Below are positions 8,244 to 40,519 of a DNA stretch of 45,892 nucleotides, piece after piece. This DNA comes from Chloroflexi bacterium OHK40 (GTDB lineage: Bacteria > Chloroflexota > Chloroflexia > Chloroflexales > Chloroflexaceae). The DNA is taken from NCBI GenBank assembly GCA_004367505.1, contig SFCB01000031.1, positions 1 through 45,892 on the forward strand, in the 5' to 3' direction. Within the stretch, counting starts at the first letter, position 1. The number at the start of each line of letters is the position of its first letter. The notes beneath the pieces were generated by a model, which was not told the origin of the DNA, ran no database searches, and worked only from the letters and a program-made list of their open reading frames with translations. Position numbers and translations under genes: made by a program.

Positions 8244-9821
8244 ATGTCAGGGCGGGTAACAACACAGTCAGCCGACGCTCTGCGTGGTAAGCGGGCGCTC
8301 GTGATGGGCCTCGGGGTTCACGGTGGTGGTCTGGGCGTTGCCCGCTGGTTGCTGCGCCAGGGGGCTGAGGTTACTGTAACCGATACGGCAAGCCGCGAGG
8401 CGCTCGCCGCACCAATCGCGGCCCTGGACGAGGCCGCCGGGGCGCTGGGGGCAACGGTGGCCTACACGCTCGGCGAACACCGGGCAGAGGATTTCCAGAG
8501 CCACGAACTCGTGGTCGTCAACCCGGCGGTGCGCCCCGACTCGCCCTGGCTCGCGCTGGCTGCCGAGTCTGGCGCCGCCGTCGAGACGGAGATGACGCTC
8601 TTCTTTCGGGCCTGCCGGGGCACCATCCTCGGAGTGACGGGCACGAAGGGGAAGACCACGACAGCGCTCCTGCTCGCCGCGATGCTGCGTGAGCGCTACC
8701 CGGATGTGGTGGCGGCCGGCAACCTGCGCGTCTCGGCACTTGAGGCGCTGGAGGGGATCGGCCCGGCAACGCCGGTGGTGCTGGAGCTGTCGAGCTTCCA
8801 GTTGGAGCGGCTCGGCGCCGCCGGGCTGAGCCCGCGCATGAGCCTGATCACTAATCTCTCGCCGGACCATCTGAACTGGCACGGCACGCTGGAGGCCTAC
8901 GCGGCGGCCAAACGCCAGATCTACTGGCACCAGCCCGCCGATGGGGCCGTGGCGCTGAATGGCTGCGACGATGCGAGCGCGGAGTATTGTACGCTCTGGG
9001 ACGAAGGGCTCAACCGGCGGGGCGGGCGGCCGATCTGGGTTGCCGCTGGCCCGAGTTGGTCGCGCGAGCGCAGCCGCTACCCCCACCGGGTGCTGCGGGC
9101 CGTGCCGACGACGGTAGAGCGGCGCGGCGGGGTGGTGATCTGGAGCGACTTGGCTGGTGCCTTCGGTGCGCGCACGCCGCTCGCCGGCGAGCCCCTGTTC
9201 AGCCCGGAAGACTTACGGGTGCCTGGCGCGCATAACCTCTACAATGCGATGGCGGCGGCGGCGCTGGCGCGGGCCTACGGTGTGGACGGGGAGGGCATCC
9301 GCGCGGCGATCCGGGGCTTTGAGGGGGTGGAGCACCGCCTGGAGCTCGTGCGCGAGCTCGATGGGGTGCGCTATGTCAACGATACTACGGCCACCAATCC
9401 GGCGGCGGCGCTGGCCGCGCTGGCCGCTACCGCGCCGCCGATCGTGCTGATCGCAGGTGGAGCCGATAAGGAGTTGGAGTTCGCGGCGCTCGGCGCGGCC
9501 ATTGCCCGGAGTGTCAAGGGGCTGGTTCTGCTGGCGGGGAGCGCGACGCCACGGTTGCTTGAGGCAGTGGCGGCGTGCGGTACAGGCACTGGCGATGCGG
9601 CGCTGCCGGGGCGTTCGCACGGTCACATTGATCTGCCAGCCACATCCCGCCCCGTGATCGTGGGGCCGTACAGCGACTTTGCCGAAGCCGTCCGGGCGGC
9701 CAGGGAGCTGGCCGGGCCGGGCGACACGGTGCTCCTCTCCCCCGGCTGCGCCAGCTTCGGGATGTTCCGCAACGAATTTCACCGCGGCGAGGAGTTCCGG
9801 AAGATCGTCGCCGAGCTCTAG
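8244..9821 (+). CDS. murD: UDP-MurNAc-L-Ala:D-Glu ligase MurD
   Basis: A 525-residue Mur ligase that adds D-glutamate to UDP-MurNAc-L-Ala. The N-terminal Rossmann part carries GLGVHGGGLGVARWL. The P-loop is GVTGTKGKTTT, followed by LSSFQLERL, TNLSPDHLNWHGT and, in the C-terminal domain, VNDTTATNPAAALAAL and LSPGCASFGMFRNEF. It is longer than the usual 450 residues, mainly through a segment at about 240-330 and a Gly-rich one near 445-475. Start ATG has GGGAGG 5 bases upstream. Thirteen bases separate it from mraY. Confidence 0.95.
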   Translation: MSGRVTTQSADALRGKRALVMGLGVHGGGLGVARWLLRQGAEVTVTDTASREALAAPIAALDEAAGALGATVAYTLGEHRAEDFQSHELVVVNPAVRPDSPWLALAAESGAAVETEMTLFFRACRGTILGVTGTKGKTTTALLLAAMLRERYPDVVAAGNLRVSALEALEGIGPATPVVLELSSFQLERLGAAGLSPRMSLITNLSPDHLNWHGTLEAYAAAKRQIYWHQPADGAVALNGCDDASAEYCTLWDEGLNRRGGRPIWVAAGPSWSRERSRYPHRVLRAVPTTVERRGGVVIWSDLAGAFGARTPLAGEPLFSPEDLRVPGAHNLYNAMAAAALARAYGVDGEGIRAAIRGFEGVEHRLELVRELDGVRYVNDTTATNPAAALAALAATAPPIVLIAGGADKELEFAALGAAIARSVKGLVLLAGSATPRLLEAVAACGTGTGDAALPGRSHGHIDLPATSRPVIVGPYSDFAEAVRAARELAGPGDTVLLSPGCASFGMFRNEFHRGEEFRKIVAEL

Positions 9822-9827
9822 GAGTTT

Positions 9828-10568
9828 ATGATCCAGCCACCCCATGGCGACGCCCGCCCCGCCACGAGGCCCCGCGTCTGGCTTACCTGGGTCCTGCTCT
9901 GGGCCATCGTCCTGGTCTACGTGATCAGCTGCCTGCTGAGTGGGAGCCTCTTTCAACCGGCCTTCCCGGTGCTGATCGTGCTCGGCGCAAAGGAGAATAG
10001 CCTGGTGGCGGCGGGGGAGTACTGGCGACTGCTCAGTGCAACTTTCCTGCACGCCAATCTGGTGCACATCTTCTTCAACAGCTACGCGCTCTTCGCCCTT
10101 GGCCCGGAGAGCGAGCGGATCTACGGGACGGCCCGCTTCGCCGCCGTCTACTTCATCGCCGGGCTTGGAGGAAGCGTCGCCTCGTACCTGTTCTCGCCCG
10201 CGCCGGCGGTGGGGGCGAGCGGGGCGATCTTCGGCCTGATCGGGGCGCTGGGGATCTTCTACTACCTCAGCCGGCAGGCCCTGGGTGCCTTCGGGCGCAT
10301 GCAGGTGCAGAGCATCGCCTCGATCGCGGCGATCAACCTGGTGATCGGCTTTGCCTCGGCCGGCACAATCGACAACTGGGGGCATATGGGCGGCCTGGTC
10401 AGCGGCCTGCTTGCTGGCCTGGCCCTCGCCCCCCGGCTCAGCGTCGATACAGGGTTTTTCCCGCCCGTGCTGGTGCGGTGGCAGTTACCCTGGGGCTGGG
10501 CCGCCGCCGCCGCCCTCGCGCTGGCGCTTGGCGCCCTGGCCGTGCTGCTCCCGGGGGCCGGGGTGTGA
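9828..10568 (+). CDS. Rhomboid-family intramembrane serine protease
   Basis: A 246-residue polytopic membrane protein with six or more hydrophobic helices. The rhomboid catalytic pattern is clear: the HANLVHIFFNSYAL helix, GASGAIFG with the nucleophile Ser131, and GHMGG with His186 as the second member of the dyad. Rhomboids cleave substrates within or near the membrane. It starts 6 bases after murD with a GGAG site and is transcribed with the cluster. This is not a usual dcw gene, and its substrate is unknown; a role in division or envelope turnover is only suggested by position. Confidence 0.92.
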   Translation: MIQPPHGDARPATRPRVWLTWVLLWAIVLVYVISCLLSGSLFQPAFPVLIVLGAKENSLVAAGEYWRLLSATFLHANLVHIFFNSYALFALGPESERIYGTARFAAVYFIAGLGGSVASYLFSPAPAVGASGAIFGLIGALGIFYYLSRQALGAFGRMQVQSIASIAAINLVIGFASAGTIDNWGHMGGLVSGLLAGLALAPRLSVDTGFFPPVLVRWQLPWGWAAAAALALALGALAVLLPGAGV

Positions 10569-27854: not shown

Positions 27855-28966
27855 GGGAGGGTCTGCACTTCCACCGATAGGACAGCCGGAAGATCACGCA
27901 CGATCGGGGCCCAGCTGTCACCGCCATTGGCCGATGCGTAGACCTGCCCGCCGGTCGTGCCGAAATAGATTCCGCACGGGTCGAGCGTGTCGACGGCCAT
28001 CGCATCGCGCAGAACATTGACGTAACAATCGCGCTGGGGCAGGCCCGTGGCGAGCGGCTCCCACTCGTGGCCACCGGACCGGCTGCGGTAGACGCGCAGC
28101 TTGCCATCGGGGGGGTAGTGCTCGGAGTCGCTCTTGATCGGCACCACGTAGACTGTCTCCGGCTCGTGGGCGTGGACAGCAATCGGGAAGCCGAAGTCAG
28201 TCGGCAGGTTCCCGCTAATCTCGTGCCAGTTATCGCCGCCATCGTCGCTGCGCATCACGTCCCAGTGCTTCTGCATAAAGAGCACCCCGGGGCGTGCGGG
28301 GTGCATCGCGAGGTGGTGCACACAGTGGCCAACCTCGGCCTGCGGGTCGGGGATGCCATCGGAGCGGAGCCCGCGGTTGATCGGCCGCCAGGTGAGGCCG
28401 CCGTCGTCGGTGCGGAAGGCCCCCGCCGCCGAGATGGCGATATAGATCCGCTTGGGGTCGCTCGGGTCCAGCACGATCGTATGGAGACACAGCCCGCCGG
28501 CTCCGGGCTGCCAGAGGGGCCCCGAGGGGTGCTGGCGCAACCCCGAGAGCTCCTGCCACGTCGCCCCGCCGTCGGTCGTGCGGAAGAGCGCGGCATCCTC
28601 CACGCCTGCATAGACCGTGTCCGGGTCGCTCAGGGAGGGCTCAAGGTGCCAGACGCGGGTGAACTCCCAGGGGTGCTGGGTGCCGTCGTACCACTGGTGG
28701 GTGCCGGGAACGCCGTCGTAGGTGAACTGGTTTCCGACCGGCTCCCAGGTGGTGCCGCCATCATCCGAGCGCTGGATGAGCTGCCCGAACCAGCCGGTTG
28801 ACTGGGAGGCGTAGAGACGGTTCGGGTTGGCCGGAGAGCCCTTCAGGTGGTAGACCTCCCAGCCCGCGAAGTGGGGGCCGCTTACCTCCCAGCGTTCGCG
28901 CTTTCCGTCCGCCGTGAGAATGAACGCTCCCTTGCGTGTACCCACGAGCACCCGTACTCCGCTCAT
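27851..28966 (-). CDS. Asp-box beta-propeller (BNR repeat) protein
   Basis: A 371-residue protein with about six Asp-box motifs (SxDGGxTW): [36 protein letters not shown], then the weaker SRSGGHEWE and SANGGDSWA. It is a sialidase- or photosystem-stability-factor-like beta propeller. There is no signal peptide, so it is probably cytoplasmic. The ATG at 28966 has AGGAG upstream and starts [15 protein letters not shown]. Sialidase catalytic residues are not evident, so I do not call it an enzyme. It is coupled to the MoaD/ThiS-like gene. The function of this pair is unknown to me. Confidence 0.85.
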
Positions 28967-29027: not shown

Positions 29028-29110
29028 GCTGGGGACAGGCGTGCAGGGCCATCCGGCACGCCTGCCTGCCCCTGCTTGTGCGGGGGTGGGTGTCACCGGC
29101 AACCGCGTGA

Positions 29111-29163
29111 GCCCGCGCAGGCGGGCTTCGCCGCCCCAGAGCCGCGCGCTTCAGCGCCACGGC
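29111..29163 (+). repeat. Dispersed palindromic repeat, copy 2
   Basis: Two hairpins in tandem: GCCCGC (29111-29116) with GCGGGC (29121-29126), then GCGCT (29146-29150) with AGCGC (29153-29157) inside GCCG/CGGC. Bases 29135-29162 match 445-472 at 27 of 28 positions. It occupies the spacer between two divergent promoters; 28967-29340 holds no gene. Confidence 0.65.
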
Positions 29164-29236: not shown

Positions 29237-29340
29237 ACACTCTAACCCTGAGAGTACAACCGAGTGTGTCGCGGCAGCGCTGCCCGCCCCCCTCTCTGTG
29301 GCCTCTGTCCCGTTACGGCAGAAGCACACCGGTACGCCCT

Positions 29341-30813
29341 ATGCTGACCGAGCGCAGCGCGCGAACGAACGGCCACTCGCTGTTCAATAGCTACTTCCTT
29401 GACACCGCGTATGATGAGATGTTCGATGCGGCCGGGGAGCCGCGCCCGCATTACGGCGCGCTCTACCGGCACTTGATCGAGCTCTCCGCGCGTGAGTTGC
29501 AGCAGCGCCAGGCCTACGCCGATCTGACCTTCCTCAACCAGGGGATCACCTTCACGGTCTACGGCGATGGCGAGGGTACTGAGCGGATCTTCCCCTACGA
29601 CTTGCTGCCCCGGATTATAACGACGGCCGAGTGGCTGACGGTGGAGCGGGGCCTGCGGCAGCGGATCACTGCCCTCAACCATTTTCTCCACGACATCTAC
29701 CACGAGGCGCGCATCCTCGCAGACGGTATCGTCCCCCGCGAGTTGGTTTATACCTGCCAGCACTTCCGCCGGGAGCTGCGGGGCGTGGCTGTGCCGCGCA
29801 GGGTGTATGTGTCGGTCGCAGGCACCGATCTGGTGCGGCTGCCCTCGGGGCAGTTCGCCGTGCTGGAGGACAACCTGCGGGTGCCGAGCGGGGTAAGCTA
29901 TATGCTTACCAACCGCCAGGTGATGAAGCGCGCCTTCCCACGGCTCTTTGCGACCTACGGTGTGCGCCCGATCGACCACTACGGCCAGGCGCTGCTCAGT
30001 ACGTTGCGCTCACTGGCGCCACCACACTGCCCTGAGCCAACCATCGTGGTGCTCACCCCCGGGGTGTTCAACTCGGCCTATTTTGAGCATACCTTCCTCG
30101 CTCGCCAGATGGGCGTTGAGCTGGTGGAAGGTCGTGACTTGCTGGTGCATGACAATATCGTCTATATGCGCACCACGGCGGGTCTGCGACGGGTGGATGT
30201 GATCTACCGGCGCGTGGACGATGATTTTATCGATCCGCTGGCTTTCCGTAGCGATTCGATCCTCGGGGTGGCTGGCCTGGTAAACGCCTATCGCGCCGGC
30301 AATGTGGCCATCTGCAACGCGCTGGGTACCGGCATCGCCGATGATAAGGCCGTGTACGCCTATGTGCCGCGGATCATCACTTACTACCTGGGTGAGGAGC
30401 CGATCCTGCCCAATGTGGAGACCTACCTCTGCGACGACCCGAGCGAACAGCGCTATGTGCTTGAGCACCTGGATGAACTGGTGGTCAAGGCGGTGGGTGA
30501 GTCGGGCGGGTATGGGATGCTGATCGGTCCCCATAGTACTGCCGAGGAGCGTGAGCGCTTCCGGGCGCGCATCCTGGCCAACCCACGTAACTATATCGCC
30601 CAGCCTACCCTGCAGCTCTCACGGGCCCCCTGCTTCGTCAACGGTCAGGTCGAGCCGCGCCACGTGGATCTGCGACCCTTTATCCTCTGTGGCGGTGAGC
30701 AGACGACGATCGTTCCGGGCGGACTAACTCGGGTGGCGCTGCGCAAGGGCTCCCTGGTGGTCAACTCTTCGCAGGGCGGGGGAAGCAAAGATACCTGGGT
30801 GCTCTTTGAGTAA
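29341..30813 (+). CDS. Circularly permuted ATP-grasp protein
   Basis: A 490-residue protein of the circularly permuted ATP-grasp family (DUF404/DUF407). Recognisable parts are [15 protein letters not shown] near the N-terminus, [62 protein letters not shown] and [11 protein letters not shown]. Members are predicted to form peptide-like bonds using ATP. The substrate is unknown. Start chosen at 29341 because the family begins shortly before FxSYxLxxxYDEMFD; no clear ribosome binding site is seen. First of three genes with alpha-E and transglutaminase partners. Confidence 0.9.
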
Positions 30814-30840
30814 CGGGCAGACGTACACGCTACACGAGCT

Positions 30841-31803
30841 ATGCTGTCTCGCGATGCTGATAGCCTTTACTGGATGAGCCGCTACCTGGAGCGGGCCGAG
30901 CACACGGCCCGGCTGCTTGGTGTCGGCCTCACCCAGATGCTCGACCAGACGCCCGAGCTCGCGCCGCCGCGCTGGGGCCGGCTGCTGAGCGCGCTCCAGG
31001 CAACCCCGCCCAGGGAAGGGCTCGCCGATGCCTACGCGATCACCCGGGAGCTGACGTTTGAGCCGGCCAATGCGAACGCGATCGTGGCCTGTGTGGCGCT
31101 GGCCCGCGAGAATGCGCGCCAGGTGCGCCAGCAGATCAGCAGCGAGATGTGGGAGCAGATTAACCGGCTTTACCTGCGGGTGCGCGCCACGACCCCGGAG
31201 GCAATCTGGCAGAGTGAGCCGATCGAGTTCTACCAGGCGATCAAAGAGGGCGCCCACCTGTTCCAGGGGATTACCGATGCGACGATGAGCCACGGCGAGG
31301 GCTGGCACTTCATCCAGGTGGGCCGCTACCTCGAGCGCGCCGGCGCGACGGCCCTGCTGCTGGATGTCTTCTTCCGCCCTTTTCTCGAGACGCCCCCCGG
31401 CGAGCCACCCATCCTCGACGAGAACGACTGGGTGGGCCTGCTCAAGTGCTGCACCGCCTTCGAGGCCTACTGCAAGGTCTACACCGCCGATGTGCAGCCT
31501 ACTGCCGTGGCGGAGTTCTTGCTGCTGAACGGTGAGTTGCCTCGCTCGGTGCGCTTCGCCGCCGATCGCATTCAGCGAGCGCTACAGGAGATTGGCCGCG
31601 CCACTGGCTCGCGTGGGGCGGGCCGCGCAGAGCGCCTCGCCGGTCGTCTGCGGGCCGCGCTCGATTACGGCCAGGTAGATGAGATTATGGCCGACAATAT
31701 GCACGCCGACCTTGCCAGTATTCAGCGCCAGTGCGCTGCCATTCACAACGCGATCTACCAGGCCTACATCACCTACCCCGTTGAGTCTGCGCTCGCCCAG
31801 TAG
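30841..31803 (+). CDS. Alpha-E domain protein
   Basis: A 320-residue, mostly helical protein of the alpha-E (DUF403) family. The start MLSRDADSLYWMSRYLERAEHTARLL matches the family's N-terminus and fixes the ATG. Further marks are NARQVRQQISSEMWEQIN and the HFIQVGRYLERA repeat of the helical motif. No catalytic residues are known for the family. It nearly always sits beside a circularly permuted ATP-grasp gene, as here (27-bp gap), so it is probably a partner or carrier in the same reaction. Confidence 0.92.
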   Translation: MLSRDADSLYWMSRYLERAEHTARLLGVGLTQMLDQTPELAPPRWGRLLSALQATPPREGLADAYAITRELTFEPANANAIVACVALARENARQVRQQISSEMWEQINRLYLRVRATTPEAIWQSEPIEFYQAIKEGAHLFQGITDATMSHGEGWHFIQVGRYLERAGATALLLDVFFRPFLETPPGEPPILDENDWVGLLKCCTAFEAYCKVYTADVQPTAVAEFLLLNGELPRSVRFAADRIQRALQEIGRATGSRGAGRAERLAGRLRAALDYGQVDEIMADNMHADLASIQRQCAAIHNAIYQAYITYPVESALAQ

Positions 31804-31862
31804 CCAATGCACCATGCGCGGCATGCCCCTCGCCCTGCTGCATGGCGCAGGTCGCATCCATC

Positions 31863-32804
31863 ATGTATTACTCCATTCTTCACAAGACCCGGTTTCGCTA
31901 CAGCGCACCGGTGAGCGAGAGCCTGACCGAGGTGCGCATGCAGCCCCGCTCGGAGGGAGGCCAGCGCTGCCTGAGCTTTAAGCTCATCACCAGCCCCCCG
32001 GCCCGGGTGTTCAGCTACACCGATAGCTTCGGCAACCTGGTGCATCACTTCGATATTCCGGCGCCGCATCGCCAGGTGACGATCAGCGCCGAGGCGCTGG
32101 TGATCCTGCCGCCGCCCCCGCCCCTGCCAGAGGCGCTCCCACCGACGGCCTGGGATGAGCTCGATGCGCTTACCGCCGCTGAGGACCACTGGGACGCGCT
32201 CGCGCCAAGCACCTTCGCCCGGCCCACTCCACTTCTGGATGCGCTCGCCCGCGAGCTCGAGCTGCGCCGCCGCGATGACCCGCTGAGCCTGCTGCGGGAG
32301 TTGAATGCGCGCCTCTACGATACCTTCGCCTACGACCCTGAGCACACCGAGGTGGACTCGCCGATCGATGTCGCGCTGGAGGCACGCCGCGGTGTCTGCC
32401 AGGACTATAGCCACGTGATGATCGCCCTGGTGCGCGGGCTCGGCGTGCCCTGCCGCTACGTGAGCGGCTACCTCTTCCACCGCGTCGAGGACCACGACCG
32501 CTCGGCGCAGGACGCCACCCACGCCTGGGTGGAGGCGCTCTTGCCCGGCCTGGGCTGGGTTGGCTTCGACCCGACGAACAACCTGATCGCGGGGGAGCGC
32601 CATATTCGTACGGCGGTGGGCCGTGACTACGCGGATGTACCGCCGACCCGGGGAGTCTATAAGGGGCGCGCCGAGAGCACCCTGGAGGTGGGGGTGAAGG
32701 TCGTCCCGACCGAGGCCCCCATCCCGGATGAGGATGTGCTGCCGCTGCCCGCCGGGGTGGTGGTGCCCGCCGAGAGCGCCGACGAGCAGCATATGCAGCA
32801 ATAA
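31863..32804 (+). CDS. Transglutaminase-like cysteine peptidase
   Basis: A 313-residue protein. The N-terminal bacterial transglutaminase-associated domain (YSILHKTRFRYSAPVSESLTEVRMQPR) is followed by a papain-fold transglutaminase core with Cys in RRGVCQDYSHVM, His in DATHAWVEALLPG and Asp in GWVGFDPTNN, a complete triad. It probably hydrolyses or ligates peptides in the cytoplasm; no signal peptide is seen. A start at 31842 is possible, but 31863 matches the family. Third gene of the ATP-grasp/alpha-E operon. Confidence 0.92.
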   Translation: MYYSILHKTRFRYSAPVSESLTEVRMQPRSEGGQRCLSFKLITSPPARVFSYTDSFGNLVHHFDIPAPHRQVTISAEALVILPPPPPLPEALPPTAWDELDALTAAEDHWDALAPSTFARPTPLLDALARELELRRRDDPLSLLRELNARLYDTFAYDPEHTEVDSPIDVALEARRGVCQDYSHVMIALVRGLGVPCRYVSGYLFHRVEDHDRSAQDATHAWVEALLPGLGWVGFDPTNNLIAGERHIRTAVGRDYADVPPTRGVYKGRAESTLEVGVKVVPTEAPIPDEDVLPLPAGVVVPAESADEQHMQQ

Positions 32805-35084: not shown

Positions 35085-36461
35085 ATGGCCCGGGCAATGG
35101 GGACGGCGGTGCTTCCCGAGCGGGCGGCAGGCGCTGCGGCGCTAGCGCGCTGGAGAGACTACCTGCTCTCTGAGGTGGATGGGGCCTCGCTGGGCGTGTT
35201 CCGCATCCTCTTCGGGGCGATCATGGTCTGGGAGGTGCTGCGTTACGTTCGCTACGGCTGGATCGCGCGCTATTACATTGACCCCGGGTTTCACTTCAGC
35301 TACCTGCCCTTCATCCAGCCATGGCCCGGCGCCGGGATGTACTGGCACTTTGCGCTTACGGGCGTGCTGGCGTTGCTGGTGGCTCTGGGGCTGTGGTATC
35401 GGGTGGCGGCCTGGCTCTTCGCCGCCTGCTTCACCTACATCTTTCTGCTCGATAAGGCCCAGTACCTCAACCATTTCTACCTGATCTGCTTGCTGAGCCT
35501 GCTACTGGCGATCACGCCAGCTCATCGCGCCTTGAGCCTCGATGCGCGCCGAGCAATCGCGCCCGGCAGGGTGCCCCGCTGGAGCCTGCACGTGCTGCGC
35601 TTCCAGGTGGGGCTGGTCTACTTCTTCGGGGCGGTCGCCAAGCTTAACGCCGACTGGCTGGCGGGCGAGCCACTGGGCGAGTGGCTGGCTCGCCGGGCCG
35701 ACCTGCCGCTGATCGGCCCGCTGTTGGCCTGGGAGGGTGCCGGGCTCCTCTTTGCGTGGGGCGGCCTGCTCGTTGACCTGTCGCTGCCGTTTTTACTTGC
35801 CTGGGGCCGCACCTTCTGGCTCGGCGCCGCCGTGGCGGTGGCGTTCAACCTGCTCAACGCCCAGATCTTCAGCATCGGTATCTTCCCCTGGATGATGATC
35901 GCCGCCCTCACGCTCTTCCCCCGTCCCGACTGGCCGCGCGCCATCCTCGGCCGGGCCGGGGCCTCGCGCGCCAGGCGGCCCCGCCCGGGTACGCCTCCGG
36001 CCAGCCGGGCCGCCCTGGCACTGCTGGTGGCCCTGCATCTTTACGCCCTGGTCCAGCTGACTCTGCCTCTGCGCCACTGGCTCTACCCCTCCGACGTGGC
36101 CTGGAGCGAGGAGGGTCATCGCTTTAGCTGGCGCATGAAGCTGCGCGACAAGGCGGCCGAGGTGACCTTCTACGTAAGCGATCCGCGTGGGGGCGAGCGG
36201 CATGCGGTGGACGCCCGGCGCTGGCTGACGGCCCGCCAGGAGAGCAAGATGGCCTCGCGGCCGGATATGATCCACCAGTTCGCCCGCTTCGTGGCCGACG
36301 AGGAGCAGCGCCGTACAGGCGTGCGGCCGATCGTCACCGCAGAGGCCTGGGCCGGGCTTAATGGCCGTGAGCCGGCTCTGCTGGTCGATCCCACCGTGGA
36401 TCTGGCCTCCGAGCCGTACCGGCTGGGTCCGGCGCCATGGATCACGCGCCCGCCCCGCTGA
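35085..36461 (+). CDS. Vitamin K-dependent gamma-carboxylase homologue (HTTM)
   Basis: A 458-residue polytopic membrane protein with about eight helices in the first 330 residues. It matches the gamma-carboxylase family: FLLDKAQYLNHFYL, where Lys124 aligns with the catalytic lysine of the animal enzyme in a similar LDKxxxxNHxYL context, and EEGHRFSWRMKLRDKAAEVTFYV in the C-terminal part. The animal enzyme carboxylates glutamate using reduced vitamin K, CO2 and O2; bacterial homologues are mostly uncharacterised. The ATG has GGGGAGGTGAAGG upstream. It precedes the radical SAM gene by 20 bp. No obvious peptide substrate is encoded nearby. Confidence 0.88.
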   Translation: MARAMGTAVLPERAAGAAALARWRDYLLSEVDGASLGVFRILFGAIMVWEVLRYVRYGWIARYYIDPGFHFSYLPFIQPWPGAGMYWHFALTGVLALLVALGLWYRVAAWLFAACFTYIFLLDKAQYLNHFYLICLLSLLLAITPAHRALSLDARRAIAPGRVPRWSLHVLRFQVGLVYFFGAVAKLNADWLAGEPLGEWLARRADLPLIGPLLAWEGAGLLFAWGGLLVDLSLPFLLAWGRTFWLGAAVAVAFNLLNAQIFSIGIFPWMMIAALTLFPRPDWPRAILGRAGASRARRPRPGTPPASRAALALLVALHLYALVQLTLPLRHWLYPSDVAWSEEGHRFSWRMKLRDKAAEVTFYVSDPRGGERHAVDARRWLTARQESKMASRPDMIHQFARFVADEEQRRTGVRPIVTAEAWAGLNGREPALLVDPTVDLASEPYRLGPAPWITRPPR

Positions 36462-36481: not shown

Positions 36482-37873
36482 ATGCGCGCTGTGCTGATCG
36501 CAACCTATGAACTGGGCCGCCAGCCCTTTAGTCTGGCCTCTCCGGCAGCCTGGCTGCGCCGCGCCGGGGCCGAGGTTATTTGTCTGGACACCGCCGTAGC
36601 GCCGCTGGATCGCGCGTCCGTGGTCGGGGCGACGTTGATCGGGCTCTCCGTGCCGATGCATACGGCCACGCGCCTGGCCGCTGAGATGCTGCCCGAGCTG
36701 CGCGCCCTCGCGCCCAGGGCCCTGATCGTCTGTTACGGCCTCTATGCCCCGCTCAACGCCGACCACCTGCGCGCGCTTGGCGCCGATGTGTGCATCGGCG
36801 GCGAGTACGAGGCCGAGTTGGTACGGTTGTGGGAGCGGCGCCTGGACGGAGGGGAGCCCGAGGGGGCGGTGCGCATCGCGCTGGATCGGCTCGCCTTCGT
36901 GCCGCCCGAGCGCGAGGGGCTCCCGGGGCTGGAGCGCTACGCCCGGCTGATGACGCCACTGGGCCCACGGCTTGCGGGCTACACCGAGGCGAGCCGTGGC
37001 TGTAAGCATCGCTGCCGCCATTGCCCGATTGTCCCCGTGTACGGCGGGCGCTTCCGCGTGGTGCCGCGTGAGGTAGTGCTGGAGGATGCGCGCCGCCAGG
37101 TGGCCGCTGGCGCCCGCCACATCACCTTCGGCGACCCCGACTTTCTCAATGGGCCCGGCCACGTTCTGCCCCTCGTGCGCGCCCTCCACGCTGAATACCC
37201 GGGGCTGACCTACGATGTGACGGTAAAGGTTGAGCACCTGCTGCGGTACGCCCACCTGCTCCCCGAGTTGCGGGCTACTGGCTGCACGCTGGTGACAAGC
37301 GCGGTGGAGGCGCTGGACGACGCGATCCTGGAGCGCTTCGACAAGCGCCACAGTGTAGCCGACGTGGCACGTGCGGCGGCGCTGCTGCGCGCGGCGGGCA
37401 TCGCGCTGAACGCGACCTTCGTGGCGTTTACGCCGTGGACGAGCCGGCAGGTCTACCGCTCCTTCCTGGCGCAGATCGCGGAACTGGGCCTGCTGGAGAG
37501 CGTGAGCCCGGTGCAGTACGCCATTCGTCTGCTCGTCCCGGCGGGCTCGCGCCTGCTCGATCTCGACGAGGTGCGGGCCTGTGCCGGGCCCTTCGATGCG
37601 CGGGCGCTGGTCCACCCCTGGCGTCACCCCGATCCGGCGATGGACGAACTGCAGCGGGCGGTGCTGCGCCTTGCTCAGGGGAGTGCCGCCCGTGGCGAGA
37701 CGCGGCCAGCCTTCTACCGCCGCGTCCTGGCGCTGGTGGATGCGCATATCGGCGCGGCGCCGGTGGTGGCGCCGGAGCATCTCCTGCAGCGGCCACCCAT
37801 TCCCTACCTGAGCGAGCCGTGGTACTGCTGAGCGGAGCCTACCGAGGAGCAGGCTGCTCCTGACTACGTGTGA
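36482..37873 (+). CDS. B12-binding/radical SAM selenoprotein, CUAEP tail
   Basis: Read through the TGA at 37829 as selenocysteine, this is a 463-residue protein. Residues 1-130 form a cobalamin-binding-like Rossmann domain (GATLIGLSVPMHTATRLA, GADVCIGGEYE). The radical SAM core has the cluster motif in EASRGCKHRCRHCP (CxxxCxxC). The frame reaches WYC and then TGA GCG GAG CCT, giving Cys449-Sec450-Ala-Glu-Pro and ten more residues to a second TGA at 37871. I recall a radical SAM family described by a CUAEP/CCAEP tail, which matches. A SECIS-like hairpin follows. Without recoding the protein would be 449 residues. Its reaction is unknown. Confidence 0.85.
37829..37861 (+). promoter_or_regulatory. 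Selenocysteine TGA with SECIS-like stem-loop
   Basis: TGA at 37829-37831 is followed by AGGAGCA (37845-37851), loop GGC (37852-37854) and TGCTCCT (37855-37861): a 7-bp perfect stem with a G-rich apical loop 20 bases after the TGA. Bacterial SECIS elements place a small stem with a G at the start of its loop at this distance. No long-range sequence consensus exists to confirm it further by eye. Confidence 0.7.
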
Positions 37874-37885
37874 CCGAGGATGGCG

Positions 37886-39124
37886 ATGGCGCAACGGGTG
37901 CTCTTGCTGACAACCCCCTCCTCCTACCGCCTCCCGGCCTTTCTGGAGGCGGGCGAGCGGCTCGGTATTGAGTTGCTCGTGGCGGAGGACATGCCTGCGG
38001 CGCTGGCCGGCCGCGCGGGGCTGCGGATCGGGCTCGATTTTGCCGACGAGGCTGGCGCCACGCGCACGCTGCTCACGGTGGCCGCCGAGGCGCCGCTCGC
38101 GGCCGTGATCGCGGTAGACGACAGCGGGAGCCTGCTGGCGGCGCGGGTGAGCGCGGCTCTCGGGCTGCCACACAATCGTCCGGAGGCGGCCGAGGCAGCC
38201 CGCGATAAGTATCGCATGCGGCAGCTCTTCGCGCAGGCCGGGGTGCCCTCGCCCGCGTTTCGCCTCTGCTCAACCGACGACGACCTGGCCGCCCTGGCCA
38301 CCCGGATCGCCTATCCCTGCGTAGTGAAGCCGCTGCGCCTGAACGGCAGCCGTGGCGTTATCCGTGCTGACGGTCCGGAGGGCTTTGTGGCGGCTGCACG
38401 GCGTATTGCCCGCCTGCTCGACCGGTTGGAGGGCCCCGGGCCTCACCAGTTCCTCGCCGAGGCGTTCATCCCCGGCTTCGAGGTCGCACTGGAGGGCCTG
38501 ATCGATCGGGGGCGACTGCAGGTGCTTGCGCTCTTCGATAAGCCCGATCCGTTGGACGGCCCGTTCTTCGAAGAGACGATCTACGTGACGCCCTCGCGCC
38601 TGCCGCCCGAGGTGCAGCAGGCGATCGGCGAGGTAGCCGCGCGGGCCGCGACGGCGGTGGGCCTGGAGCGGGGGCCGCTCCACGCCGAGCTGCGGGTGAA
38701 TGAAGCCGGGCCGTGGATGGTGGAACTGGCCGGGCGCACGATCGGGGGGCTCTGCTCGCGCACACTACGCTTCGGCACCGATGCCTCGCTGGAGGAGCTG
38801 ATCCTGCGGCAGGCTACGGGGCTACCGGTGGAGTCGTTGAGCGCTGCCGGTAGCGCGGGCGGGGTGATGATGATCCCCATCCCCGGGCCCGGGGTGCTGC
38901 GGGCGGTGCATGGCGTCGCGGAGGCCAGGGCGGTGCCGGGTATAGAGAGTGTGGAGATTACCGCGCCGTTGCATTACCCCCTGGTGCCACTGCCAGAGGG
39001 TGACGCCTACCTCGGATTCATCTTCGCGCGCGGGGAGCGACCAGAGCAGGTCGAGGCCGCGCTACGGGCGAGCCACGACCTGCTGGCGTTCGAGCTCATG
39101 CCGGAGATCCCCGTGCTCTCATAG
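37886..39124 (+). CDS. ATP-grasp domain protein
   Basis: A 412-residue ATP-grasp enzyme. An N-terminal pre-ATP-grasp part (VLLLTTPSSYRLPAFLEAGERLG, VIAVDDSG) is followed by ARDKYRMRQLFAQAGVPSP, YPCVVKPLRLNGSRGVIRA, the metal-binding HAELRVNE and VELAGRTIGG, and a C-terminal lid. It should couple ATP hydrolysis to a carboxylate-amine ligation of unknown substrate. The ATG at 37886 is favoured over 37880 because GAGGA ends 5 bases before it. It lies 12 bp after the second stop of the radical SAM selenoprotein and is probably cotranscribed. Confidence 0.88.
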   Translation: MAQRVLLLTTPSSYRLPAFLEAGERLGIELLVAEDMPAALAGRAGLRIGLDFADEAGATRTLLTVAAEAPLAAVIAVDDSGSLLAARVSAALGLPHNRPEAAEAARDKYRMRQLFAQAGVPSPAFRLCSTDDDLAALATRIAYPCVVKPLRLNGSRGVIRADGPEGFVAAARRIARLLDRLEGPGPHQFLAEAFIPGFEVALEGLIDRGRLQVLALFDKPDPLDGPFFEETIYVTPSRLPPEVQQAIGEVAARAATAVGLERGPLHAELRVNEAGPWMVELAGRTIGGLCSRTLRFGTDASLEELILRQATGLPVESLSAAGSAGGVMMIPIPGPGVLRAVHGVAEARAVPGIESVEITAPLHYPLVPLPEGDAYLGFIFARGERPEQVEAALRASHDLLAFELMPEIPVLS

Positions 39125-39231: not shown

Positions 39232-39534
39232 CTACTTCCGGCGGGGCGCGCCGCCCTTGCCCTGGCGCACAGGGGGCGTCCAACCCTCGGGCATTTTGGC
39301 ATTCTCGCCGAAGAAGAACTCCTCCATCTGCTGCATGAGGATCTTCTGGGCGTTCGGGTCGCCAAGGCTGAGGCCGTAGTGGTTGATCACCAGGGTTGCC
39401 TGGGCGGGCCAGAGGTTGTAGGCTTGCTGGGAGATCTCTTCGTAGATGCGCTGGCCGAGGGGGCCGGGGAAGGGGGGCCGCTCCAGCCCCGGGAGTTCTC
39501 GCCCGAGTTTCGCGCAGTTGACCATCCGTGGCAT
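39232..39534 (-). CDS. YggX-like Fe(II)-trafficking protein
   Basis: A 100-residue protein that begins MPRMVNCAKLGRELPGLERPPFPGPLGQRIYEEISQQAYNLW (cited in part: MPRMVNCAKLGREL), with NCxKLG carrying the conserved Cys and a C-terminal QMEEFFFGE. This is the YggX family, linked to iron-sulfur cluster protection and iron trafficking. The start is set by the family's MxRMVNC beginning. Gly/Lys/Arg-rich C-terminal tail. It converges on the ATP-grasp gene. Nothing visible explains its regulation. Confidence 0.93.
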   Translation of the reverse strand: MPRMVNCAKLGRELPGLERPPFPGPLGQRIYEEISQQAYNLWPAQATLVINHYGLSLGDPNAQKILMQQMEEFFFGENAKMPEGWTPPVRQGKGGAPRRK

Positions 39535-39616
39535 CGCTCTTGCCTGACTAGCGCCGGTGCCGGCGCGTGAGACTTGCGGCTGCGGGCCCGGCCCGCCCAC
39601 GTATTATACCTGAGGC

Positions 39617-40519
39617 ATGCGAGTTGTTGTCTTTGCGATGCCGGGCCGCCTGGCCGGTCCTGCTTTGCTGGCCCTGCTCGAAGCGGGCGCCGAGGTGGCC
39701 GCCGTGGTGGTACCAGCGCCGCCGGGCGCGCCGCCGCTAGCCCCGGCCCCGCCGGTAGCCCCGCCCGACAGCTTCATCGGGGTGGGCCAGCCGCCGCCGC
39801 TGGGCCCCTTGCAGGTGGCGGCGGCCCGTGGGCTCCCTGCCCTCGCCGTGGGCCGCCGCGCCGAACCAGCGCTGGCTACCGCCATCGCCGCCTACCGGCC
39901 CGACCTGGCCTGTGTGGTCTGCTGGCCGTGGCGCATCCCACCGGCGCTGCTAGCCGTGCCACGCCTTGGCTTCCTGAACCTGCACCCCGCGCCGTTGCCG
40001 GAGCTGCGCGGCCCGGAGCCACTCTTCTGGGCGTTCCAGGAGGGCCGCCGGCAGACGGCGGTGACGCTCCACTGGATGGACGAACAGTTCGATACAGGCG
40101 ATATCGCGGCGCGGGCCCCGGTGCCTTTGCCCGCCGGGATCGGCTGGGACGCCGCTGAGGAGCGAGTGGCGGTGGCGGGGGCCGCGCTTCTTCAGGAGCT
40201 TGTGCCGCGCCTTGCGAGCGGCGAGGTGCCCCGCCGTCAGCAGGGGCCGGGTGGTAGCTACCGTGGGTCGCCCGTGGAGGAGGATTTCGCCATCGAGCCC
40301 GGGTGGCCTGCGGAGCGGGCCTTTCGCTTTATGCGGGGCACCGCCGCCTGGGGCCGACCGTACAGGCTGCGGGCCGATGGAGCGGCGCCTGTCTGGCTCG
40401 GCGCCGCGATCGACTGTGACCCGGTAGGTGTGCTCGGCGCGCCGCTCATGATTGAGGGCGCCCTGGCGCGGGCGCAGCTCTCGCCGGGCGTGCTCAGCGC
40501 GACCCTGGCGCGGCGCTAG
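39617..40519 (+). CDS. Formyltransferase family protein (Fmt-like)
   Basis: A 300-residue protein with the formyltransferase fold. The active-site stretch FLNLHPAPLPELRGPEPLFWAF contains the conserved Asn and His, and VTLHWMDEQFDTGDI the conserved Asp. The C-terminal part is a poor match to the tRNA-binding domain of methionyl-tRNA formyltransferase, so another N-formylated acceptor (amino sugar or nucleotide sugar) is possible. A Pro/Ala-rich segment lies at about 35-60. The ATG has GAGG close upstream and a TATTAT element nearby. The 3' end overlaps the zinc-ribbon gene by 4 bp, convergent. Confidence 0.85.
   Translation: MRVVVFAMPGRLAGPALLALLEAGAEVAAVVVPAPPGAPPLAPAPPVAPPDSFIGVGQPPPLGPLQVAAARGLPALAVGRRAEPALATAIAAYRPDLACVVCWPWRIPPALLAVPRLGFLNLHPAPLPELRGPEPLFWAFQEGRRQTAVTLHWMDEQFDTGDIAARAPVPLPAGIGWDAAEERVAVAGAALLQELVPRLASGEVPRRQQGPGGSYRGSPVEEDFAIEPGWPAERAFRFMRGTAAWGRPYRLRADGAAPVWLGAAIDCDPVGVLGAPLMIEGALARAQLSPGVLSATLARR

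Follow-up and report, generated by a model that had tools for sequence, protein, structure and literature searches.

Introduction

ArsL of Burkholderia gladioli, when expressed alone in E. coli, converts arsenite to hydroxyarsinothricin, and a transfer by this enzyme of the 3-amino-3-carboxypropyl group from SAM to arsenite has been proposed (PMC8552651). We suggest that the Cys pair of ArsL binds the arsenic. By sequence, ArsL is the closest characterised relative of the predicted radical SAM protein analysed here, which belongs to a family modelled by NCBI under the accession NF040546. Selenocysteine (Sec) has been predicted in other radical SAM proteins, namely TIGR04167 and TrsS (NF045646), in the accessible portions of a 2026 review of prokaryotic selenoproteins, where NF040546 does not appear in the table of 119 families and its accession does not occur in the text (PMC13188914). 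Our literature search, whose coverage was incomplete so that prior publication is possible, returned no paper mentioning CUAEP, NF040546, or CCAEP together with radical SAM.

The gene studied here is an ordinary member of this family, and the novelty implied in a preliminary description of the locus was not supported, since NCBI had already modelled and named the family; the tail that the description attributed to a radical SAM family does exist, as NF040546. We report that the apparent stop codon of the gene is almost certainly read as selenocysteine, which would make the enzyme 14 residues longer than the gene-finder call. The parts worth following are its relatives with Sec-Sec or Sec-Cys tails and its kinship with ArsL.

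A radical SAM gene with an in-frame TGA

The gene lies in a 45,892-nucleotide stretch of DNA from Chloroflexi bacterium OHK40, referred to below as the window. In translation, the frame runs from the ATG at 36482 to Cys449, closing with ...EPWYC in front of a TGA at 37829-37831, which is followed by AEPTEEQAAPDYV and then by a second TGA at 37871-37873. Reading the first TGA as Sec would add 14 residues (U-A-E-P-T-E-E-Q-A-A-P-D-Y-V) and give a protein of 463 aa; the window sequence confirmed the coordinates that had been given for the gene, the TGA, the read-through and a 7-bp stem. The close relative from Oscillochloris sp. ZM17-4 (L092) has a TAA or TAG stop at the place matching 37871-37873. 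The gap of 12 bp to the next gene, also described previously, stands if that gene begins at the ATG at 37886, and shrinks to 6 bp if it begins at the first ATG, 37880, as the list of open reading frames has it. For the pattern TGC-TGA-GCN-GAR-CC, devised with the site already known, the window has one occurrence versus 0.02 expected from shuffling.

The open reading frame list places the end of the gene at the first TGA, and the preliminary description had cautioned that standard gene calling truncates this protein by 14 residues. Such truncation can indeed happen in the family, as the RefSeq CDS of the homologue from Thermomicrobium roseum (L189:5932-7368, NC_011961.1) stops exactly at the TGA. 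RefSeq names this product a CUAEP/CCAEP-tail radical SAM protein, yet the tail given in the name is absent from the sequence of the record.

The read-through protein scored well above the cut-off of NF040546, "CUAEP/CCAEP-tail radical SAM (seleno)protein" (Table 1), with residues 4-459 matching positions 2-467 of the 468 in the model and with the motif of the family, Cys449-TGA-Ala-Glu-Pro, at its C-terminus. Sixteen NCBIfam families matched at E 0.001, the second-best being ArsL (NF040542; 266.4 bits, cut-off 450). Pfam recognised Radical_SAM, with B12-binding just under threshold (31.5 vs 32.1). The CX3CX2C motif was invariant among 20 aligned family members and again when three ArsL-type proteins were aligned with the window protein. 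Structure prediction (pLDDT 91) gave a fold resembling those of AprD4, TsrM and OxsB (6fd2, 6wte and 5ul3; TM about 0.6-0.7, identity 16-21%), which ranked above MiaB, RimO and, more weakly similar, lipoyl synthase.

Table 1 Features of the locus, in window coordinates
Feature	Position	Strand	Evidence
CUAEP-tail radical SAM gene, predicted selenoprotein of 463 aa with Sec450	36482..37873	+	Translation; NF040546, 644.4 bits vs cut-off 500
CX3CX2C motif (Cys174, Cys178, Cys181), expected ligands of the [4Fe-4S] cluster	37001..37024	+	Alignments; Pfam Radical_SAM
Cys-Sec-Ala-Glu-Pro tail motif (predicted)	37826..37840	+	Present in 136/136 readable sequences, Cys/Sec swaps apart
In-frame TGA, predicted selenocysteine 450	37829..37831	+	Homologues have TGA or Cys at this codon
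Candidate bacterial SECIS hairpin, 7-bp stem, loop GGC	37845..37861	+	Register and covariation, 87 Sec vs 48 Cys genes
Predicted true stop codon (TGA)	37871..37873	+	Stop of L092 at matching place; 6 or 12 bases to next gene
ATP-grasp amino-acid-ligase-like protein, probable partner gene	37880..39124	+	PF13535, PF18603
YggX-like Fe(2+) trafficking protein, conserved neighbour	39232..39600	-	NF003817 over cut-off, PF04362
Formyltransferase-like protein, conserved neighbour	39617..40519	+	PF00551

Conservation of the tail among homologues

Homologues were collected in two ways. When 400 genomes from the same phylum were scanned, 93 had a match over the NF040546 cut-off, including the window's own, and 60 phylum regions with flanks were taken, 58 of them over the cut-off and hand-picked for spread and two (G388 and G218) below it. 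From contigs of named genomes we kept the best 80 of at least 562 relatives, and the titles of these 80, mostly MAGs, included Chloroflexi, Acidobacteria, Actinomycetota, Proteobacteria, Latescibacterota, NC10, Calditrichia and Planctomycetota. Since one of the two search patterns behind the 80 named loci was the tail itself, and the 60 phylum loci were found via the whole-family score, conservation of AEP is less independent evidence in the former than in the latter. Viral contigs gave 40 pattern matches and no relative. Together with the window there were 141 loci, reduced to 137 by removing four copies identical over the compared stretch, and 136 of these had a readable tail, the contig of L113 ending before it.

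The tail is Cys-Sec in 83 of the 136 non-redundant sequences (window included), Cys-Cys in 48, Sec-Sec in three and Sec-Cys in two, with TGA taken as Sec throughout, and the pair is followed by AEP in every one; the 60 phylum loci alone comprise 37 CU and 23 CC. The TGA thus aligns with Cys in homologues and the sequence past it is conserved, as expected for a bacterial selenoprotein. Homologues ending at the Cys with no conservation beyond the TGA, which had been named in advance as an argument against recoding, were not what we found.

A candidate SECIS hairpin

The hairpin of the window, with stem AGGAGCA/TGCTCCT (7 bp) and loop GGC, begins 14 bases past the TGA. When its ungapped register, positions 14-19 against 30-25 after the codon, was applied to 87 Sec genes (L150, also a Sec gene, was omitted because its flank is too short), 85.8% of the cells held standard pairs, compared with 35-56% in registers slid by 1-3 bases and 46.9% for the 48 Cys genes in the same register. 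The observed pairing was never reached in 1000 shufflings of the 3' letters (mean 71.2%), and standard pairs had changed on both sides in 83 cells, which count sequences and not events. The loop G at position 21 was present in 87/87 Sec genes versus 30/48 Cys genes. The codon that has this G as its third base, mostly Gln, was CAG in 84 of the 87 Sec genes and CAA in none, and among the 48 Cys genes CAG in 28 and CAA in 14; since CAG is kept and CAA never used in the Sec genes, the constraint exceeds that on the amino acid.

A separate scan agreed: Sec genes had higher best hairpin scores than Cys genes (p 9e-11, relatedness ignored), those of the Cys genes being no better than those of their own shuffles (10.9 vs 10.8). 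A hairpin was present in 86 Sec genes, and 67 of these had a loop starting 20 or 21 nt past the codon. Whole-tail folding energy separated the two groups weakly (p 0.03). Taken alone, the 45-nt fold of the window was not stabler than its shuffles (z -0.32, with 61/200 folding at least as well), so that the hairpin is convincing only through the comparison of homologues, and Rfam gave two weak hits on the hairpin region to unrelated families, taken as chance. The earlier claim of a hairpin at SECIS distance was therefore borne out by the homologues, not by the single-sequence fold or by Rfam. We conclude that this putative stem-loop, at a fixed distance past the TGA, is kept with covariation in the Sec genes and is decayed in the Cys genes.

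Selenocysteine machinery

The source genome (6.93 Mb, 301 contigs) contains selA (554 bits), selB (313 bits), selD (372 bits) and tRNA-Sec (70 bits; anticodon TCA by ARAGORN, i.e. UCA), all over cut-off, and so is not the genome lacking selA, selB and tRNA-Sec that would have counted against the preliminary description. The selD frame (L193:1453-2430, G000:C152) has an in-frame TGA of its own, giving AACAGUASK, and SelD is itself likely a selenoprotein; since this frame needs TGA as a residue, the genome would hold a second selenoprotein gene.

In a hand count from the phylum scan listing, selA was found in 51 of the 53 genomes with a TGA inside the matched frame, one of which (G340) has a TAG there as well; the exceptions are G212 (76% complete) and G217 (86%). 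Presence of selA was considered as a discriminator between Sec-type and Cys-type genomes and set aside as weak, since the gene is also common in the Cys-type genomes sampled (21/23 by hand count, G238 and G391 being without) and in the background (322/400 phylum genomes at E 1e-60).

Exchange of Cys and Sec across the family

We built a FastTree phylogeny of 142 proteins, namely the 136, three additional Sec-first ones and, as outgroups, three of ArsL type, from an alignment trimmed before the pair so that the Cys/Sec trait lay outside the data. At least 20 Cys/Sec changes were required at the second residue of the pair and one at the first, and the four tail labels together took 21 changes versus 47.3 when shuffled. 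Support was uneven, 52 of the 139 inner branches being starred (well supported) and 52 open, and the starred branches by themselves require 13 changes in the CU label. The nearest relatives of the window gene, L093 (a Chloroflexi MAG) and L092, both have the TGA and the tail, and the sister group consists of seven Chloroflexus-type genes with Cys at this codon. As judged from this tree, which cannot separate gain from loss, Cys and the predicted Sec have been swapped many times in the family, and this is strong evidence that both forms work.

Sec-Sec and Sec-Cys relatives

Three of the collected genes (L117, L132 and L156) read WY-TGA-TGA-AEP, the Sec-Sec tail of L132 lying within match 9001-10404, and two (L130 and L157) read WY-TGA-TGC/TGT-AEP. 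When 396 genomes from the class to which L132 belongs were scanned with a pattern, seven matched, among which L200, L201 and L203 repeat L130, L157 and L132, and L198, L199 and L202 are new. L197, with only 20 codons open upstream, was rejected as a chance match. Neither the window's own genome nor any of 20 relatives, 21 in all, gave a match to the Sec-first pattern. The totals are thus four putative Sec-Sec genes (L132, L156, L117 and L202) and four Sec-Cys genes (L130, L157, L198 and L199), from Chloroflexi/Anaerolineae genomes. All seven genomes searched, those of the first five genes and of the Cys-Sec neighbours L119 and L169, had selA over cut-off.

The four Sec-Cys genes form a clade (support 98) nested in a larger one (99), in which the remaining three genes are Sec-Sec; L117, the fourth with a Sec-Sec tail, lies nearby with its placement unsettled. 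This arrangement is consistent with a path from Cys-Sec through Sec-Sec to Sec-Cys. The adjacent selenocysteines, encoded by TGA-TGA before AEP, are apparently served by one hairpin. The motif table in the accessible part of PMC13188914 has no adjacent UU motif, and from what the retrieved records state, a literature search on adjacent selenocysteines found none apparently about a bacterial Sec-Sec protein.

Gene neighbourhood

The neighbours of the radical SAM gene were surveyed within 4 kb at the 137 loci with one tblastn query per family; many loci are cut by contig ends, a single query may miss distant members or catch paralogues, and the counts may include gene order inherited within lineages. 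On this basis, ATP-grasp was found at 70 loci (on the same strand at 55), YggX at 60, formyltransferase at 37, a NifU/Fe-S biosynthesis-domain protein at 20, DUF169 at 15, aconitase at 14, a MoaA-like protein at seven and NadA at six, each of these families occurring with both Sec and Cys types. At five Sec-first loci of the survey there was no ATP-grasp match within 6 kb.

Directly upstream in the window (35085-36461) is a gene for a protein with HTTM and vitamin K-dependent gamma-carboxylase lumenal domains, which by tblastn is near the radical SAM gene at the window locus only, of the 137. Further upstream are a row of circularly permuted ATP-grasp, Alpha-E and transglutaminase genes (29266-32804) and an isolated hit to a CRISPR repeat model (29109-29132; 35.6 bits vs cut-off 35), probably due to chance. 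No arsenic genes were seen among the annotated window neighbours, which lie beyond position 28000.

Discussion

The best explanation of these results, and one we regard as very probably right on comparative sequence evidence, is that the window gene encodes an NF040546 selenoprotein. The first TGA would be decoded as selenocysteine by the genome's own SelA, SelB, SelD and tRNA-Sec, directed by a stem-loop whose loop starts about 20 bases downstream, and translation would end at 37871-37873. The product would be a radical SAM enzyme related to ArsL, with a fold like that of B12 radical SAM enzymes, and would end in a vicinal Cys449-Sec450 pair followed by a short AEP tail. That the protein instead ends at Cys449, with the TGA an ordinary stop and AEP the decayed remnant of a CCAEP ancestor, is very hard to credit: although RefSeq and the open reading frame list end the T. 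roseum and window genes in this way, and the hairpin of the window by itself shows no unusual stability, a decayed remnant fits poorly with AEP past the TGA in all 83 CU sequences, representing many separate TGA genes, with a hairpin retained in TGA genes only, with complete Sec machinery in the genome, and with the same TGA and tail in the two nearest relatives. Recoding corrects the length of the gene by 14 residues that include the conserved tail.

As to function, our suggestions are tentative. Near the [4Fe-4S]/SAM site, the Cys-Sec pair of the predicted selenoprotein may bind or reduce a soft substrate that seeks thiols or selenols. The enzyme would move a group derived from SAM (3-amino-3-carboxypropyl in the proposal for ArsL) onto this substrate, and the neighbouring ATP-grasp protein would ligate the amino-acid product. 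About as likely as such substrate-holding for group transfer is that the pair serves iron or Fe-S metabolism as a device for redox or for cluster delivery, a role to which the YggX, NifU/Fe-S, aconitase, MoaA-like and NadA neighbours point, but the proximity of ATP-grasp and formyltransferase genes fits small-molecule assembly better. A sacrificial Sec, acting as a chalcogen donor like that of MiaB or lipoyl synthase, seems improbable; the fold does resemble MiaB, RimO and, more weakly, lipoyl synthase, but AprD4, TsrM and OxsB rank above these, and Cys-Cys versions are common (48/136). Returning to group transfer, a broader and somewhat more doubtful proposal would make the CUAEP family a selenium branch of ArsL-type chemistry. 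Its swappable pair (Cys-Cys, Cys-Sec, Sec-Sec or Sec-Cys) would hold the soft substrate during transfer of a SAM-derived amino-acid group, and a dipeptide-ligase-like ATP-grasp enzyme would complete an undescribed metabolite occurring across many bacterial phyla. The Sec-Sec members, with adjacent UGA-UGA codons and one hairpin, would be intermediates between Cys-Sec and Sec-Cys. With these relatives, both Sec-Sec and Sec-Cys, two matters become testable, the decoding of tandem UGA codons from one SECIS and the importance of the position of selenium in the pair.

ATP-grasp proteins are common, and their link to ArsL clusters is weak. Such a gene is present in two of the three ArsL-type clusters examined, those of Priestia and Alicyclobacillus, where the product is 24-25% identical to that of the window; the stretch examined of the Pseudomonas amygdali cluster has none. 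Our literature search, incomplete in coverage, found no paper combining arsinothricin with ATP-grasp.

Compared with known systems, the window gene agrees with NF040546 in whole-length match, tail motif and Sec/Cys alternation, and nothing essential differs; the family name leaves out Sec-Sec and Sec-Cys tails, yet L132, L117 and L157 score 621-631 bits. TIGR04167 and TrsS are not among the 16 families that matched the window protein, and AprD4, TsrM and OxsB have in common with it the overall predicted fold at the low identity given above. The three ArsL-type proteins are 30-35% identical to it in alignment and have a related core, the CX3CX2C motif and a C-terminal vicinal pair, Cys-Cys in ArsL and probably Cys-Sec here. 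They differ in having about 43 residues fewer ahead of the pair, which means that the two pairs can be aligned only with gaps, in ending with CCLKC/RCCLKC where the window protein has CUAEP and thus lacks the RCCLKC motif, and in having arsenic- or arsinothricin-related genes around them; the window protein also stays below the ArsL score cut-off. A widespread radical SAM family already named by NCBI thus appears to use selenium in a C-terminal pair resembling that at the end of ArsL, an enzyme that handles arsenic.
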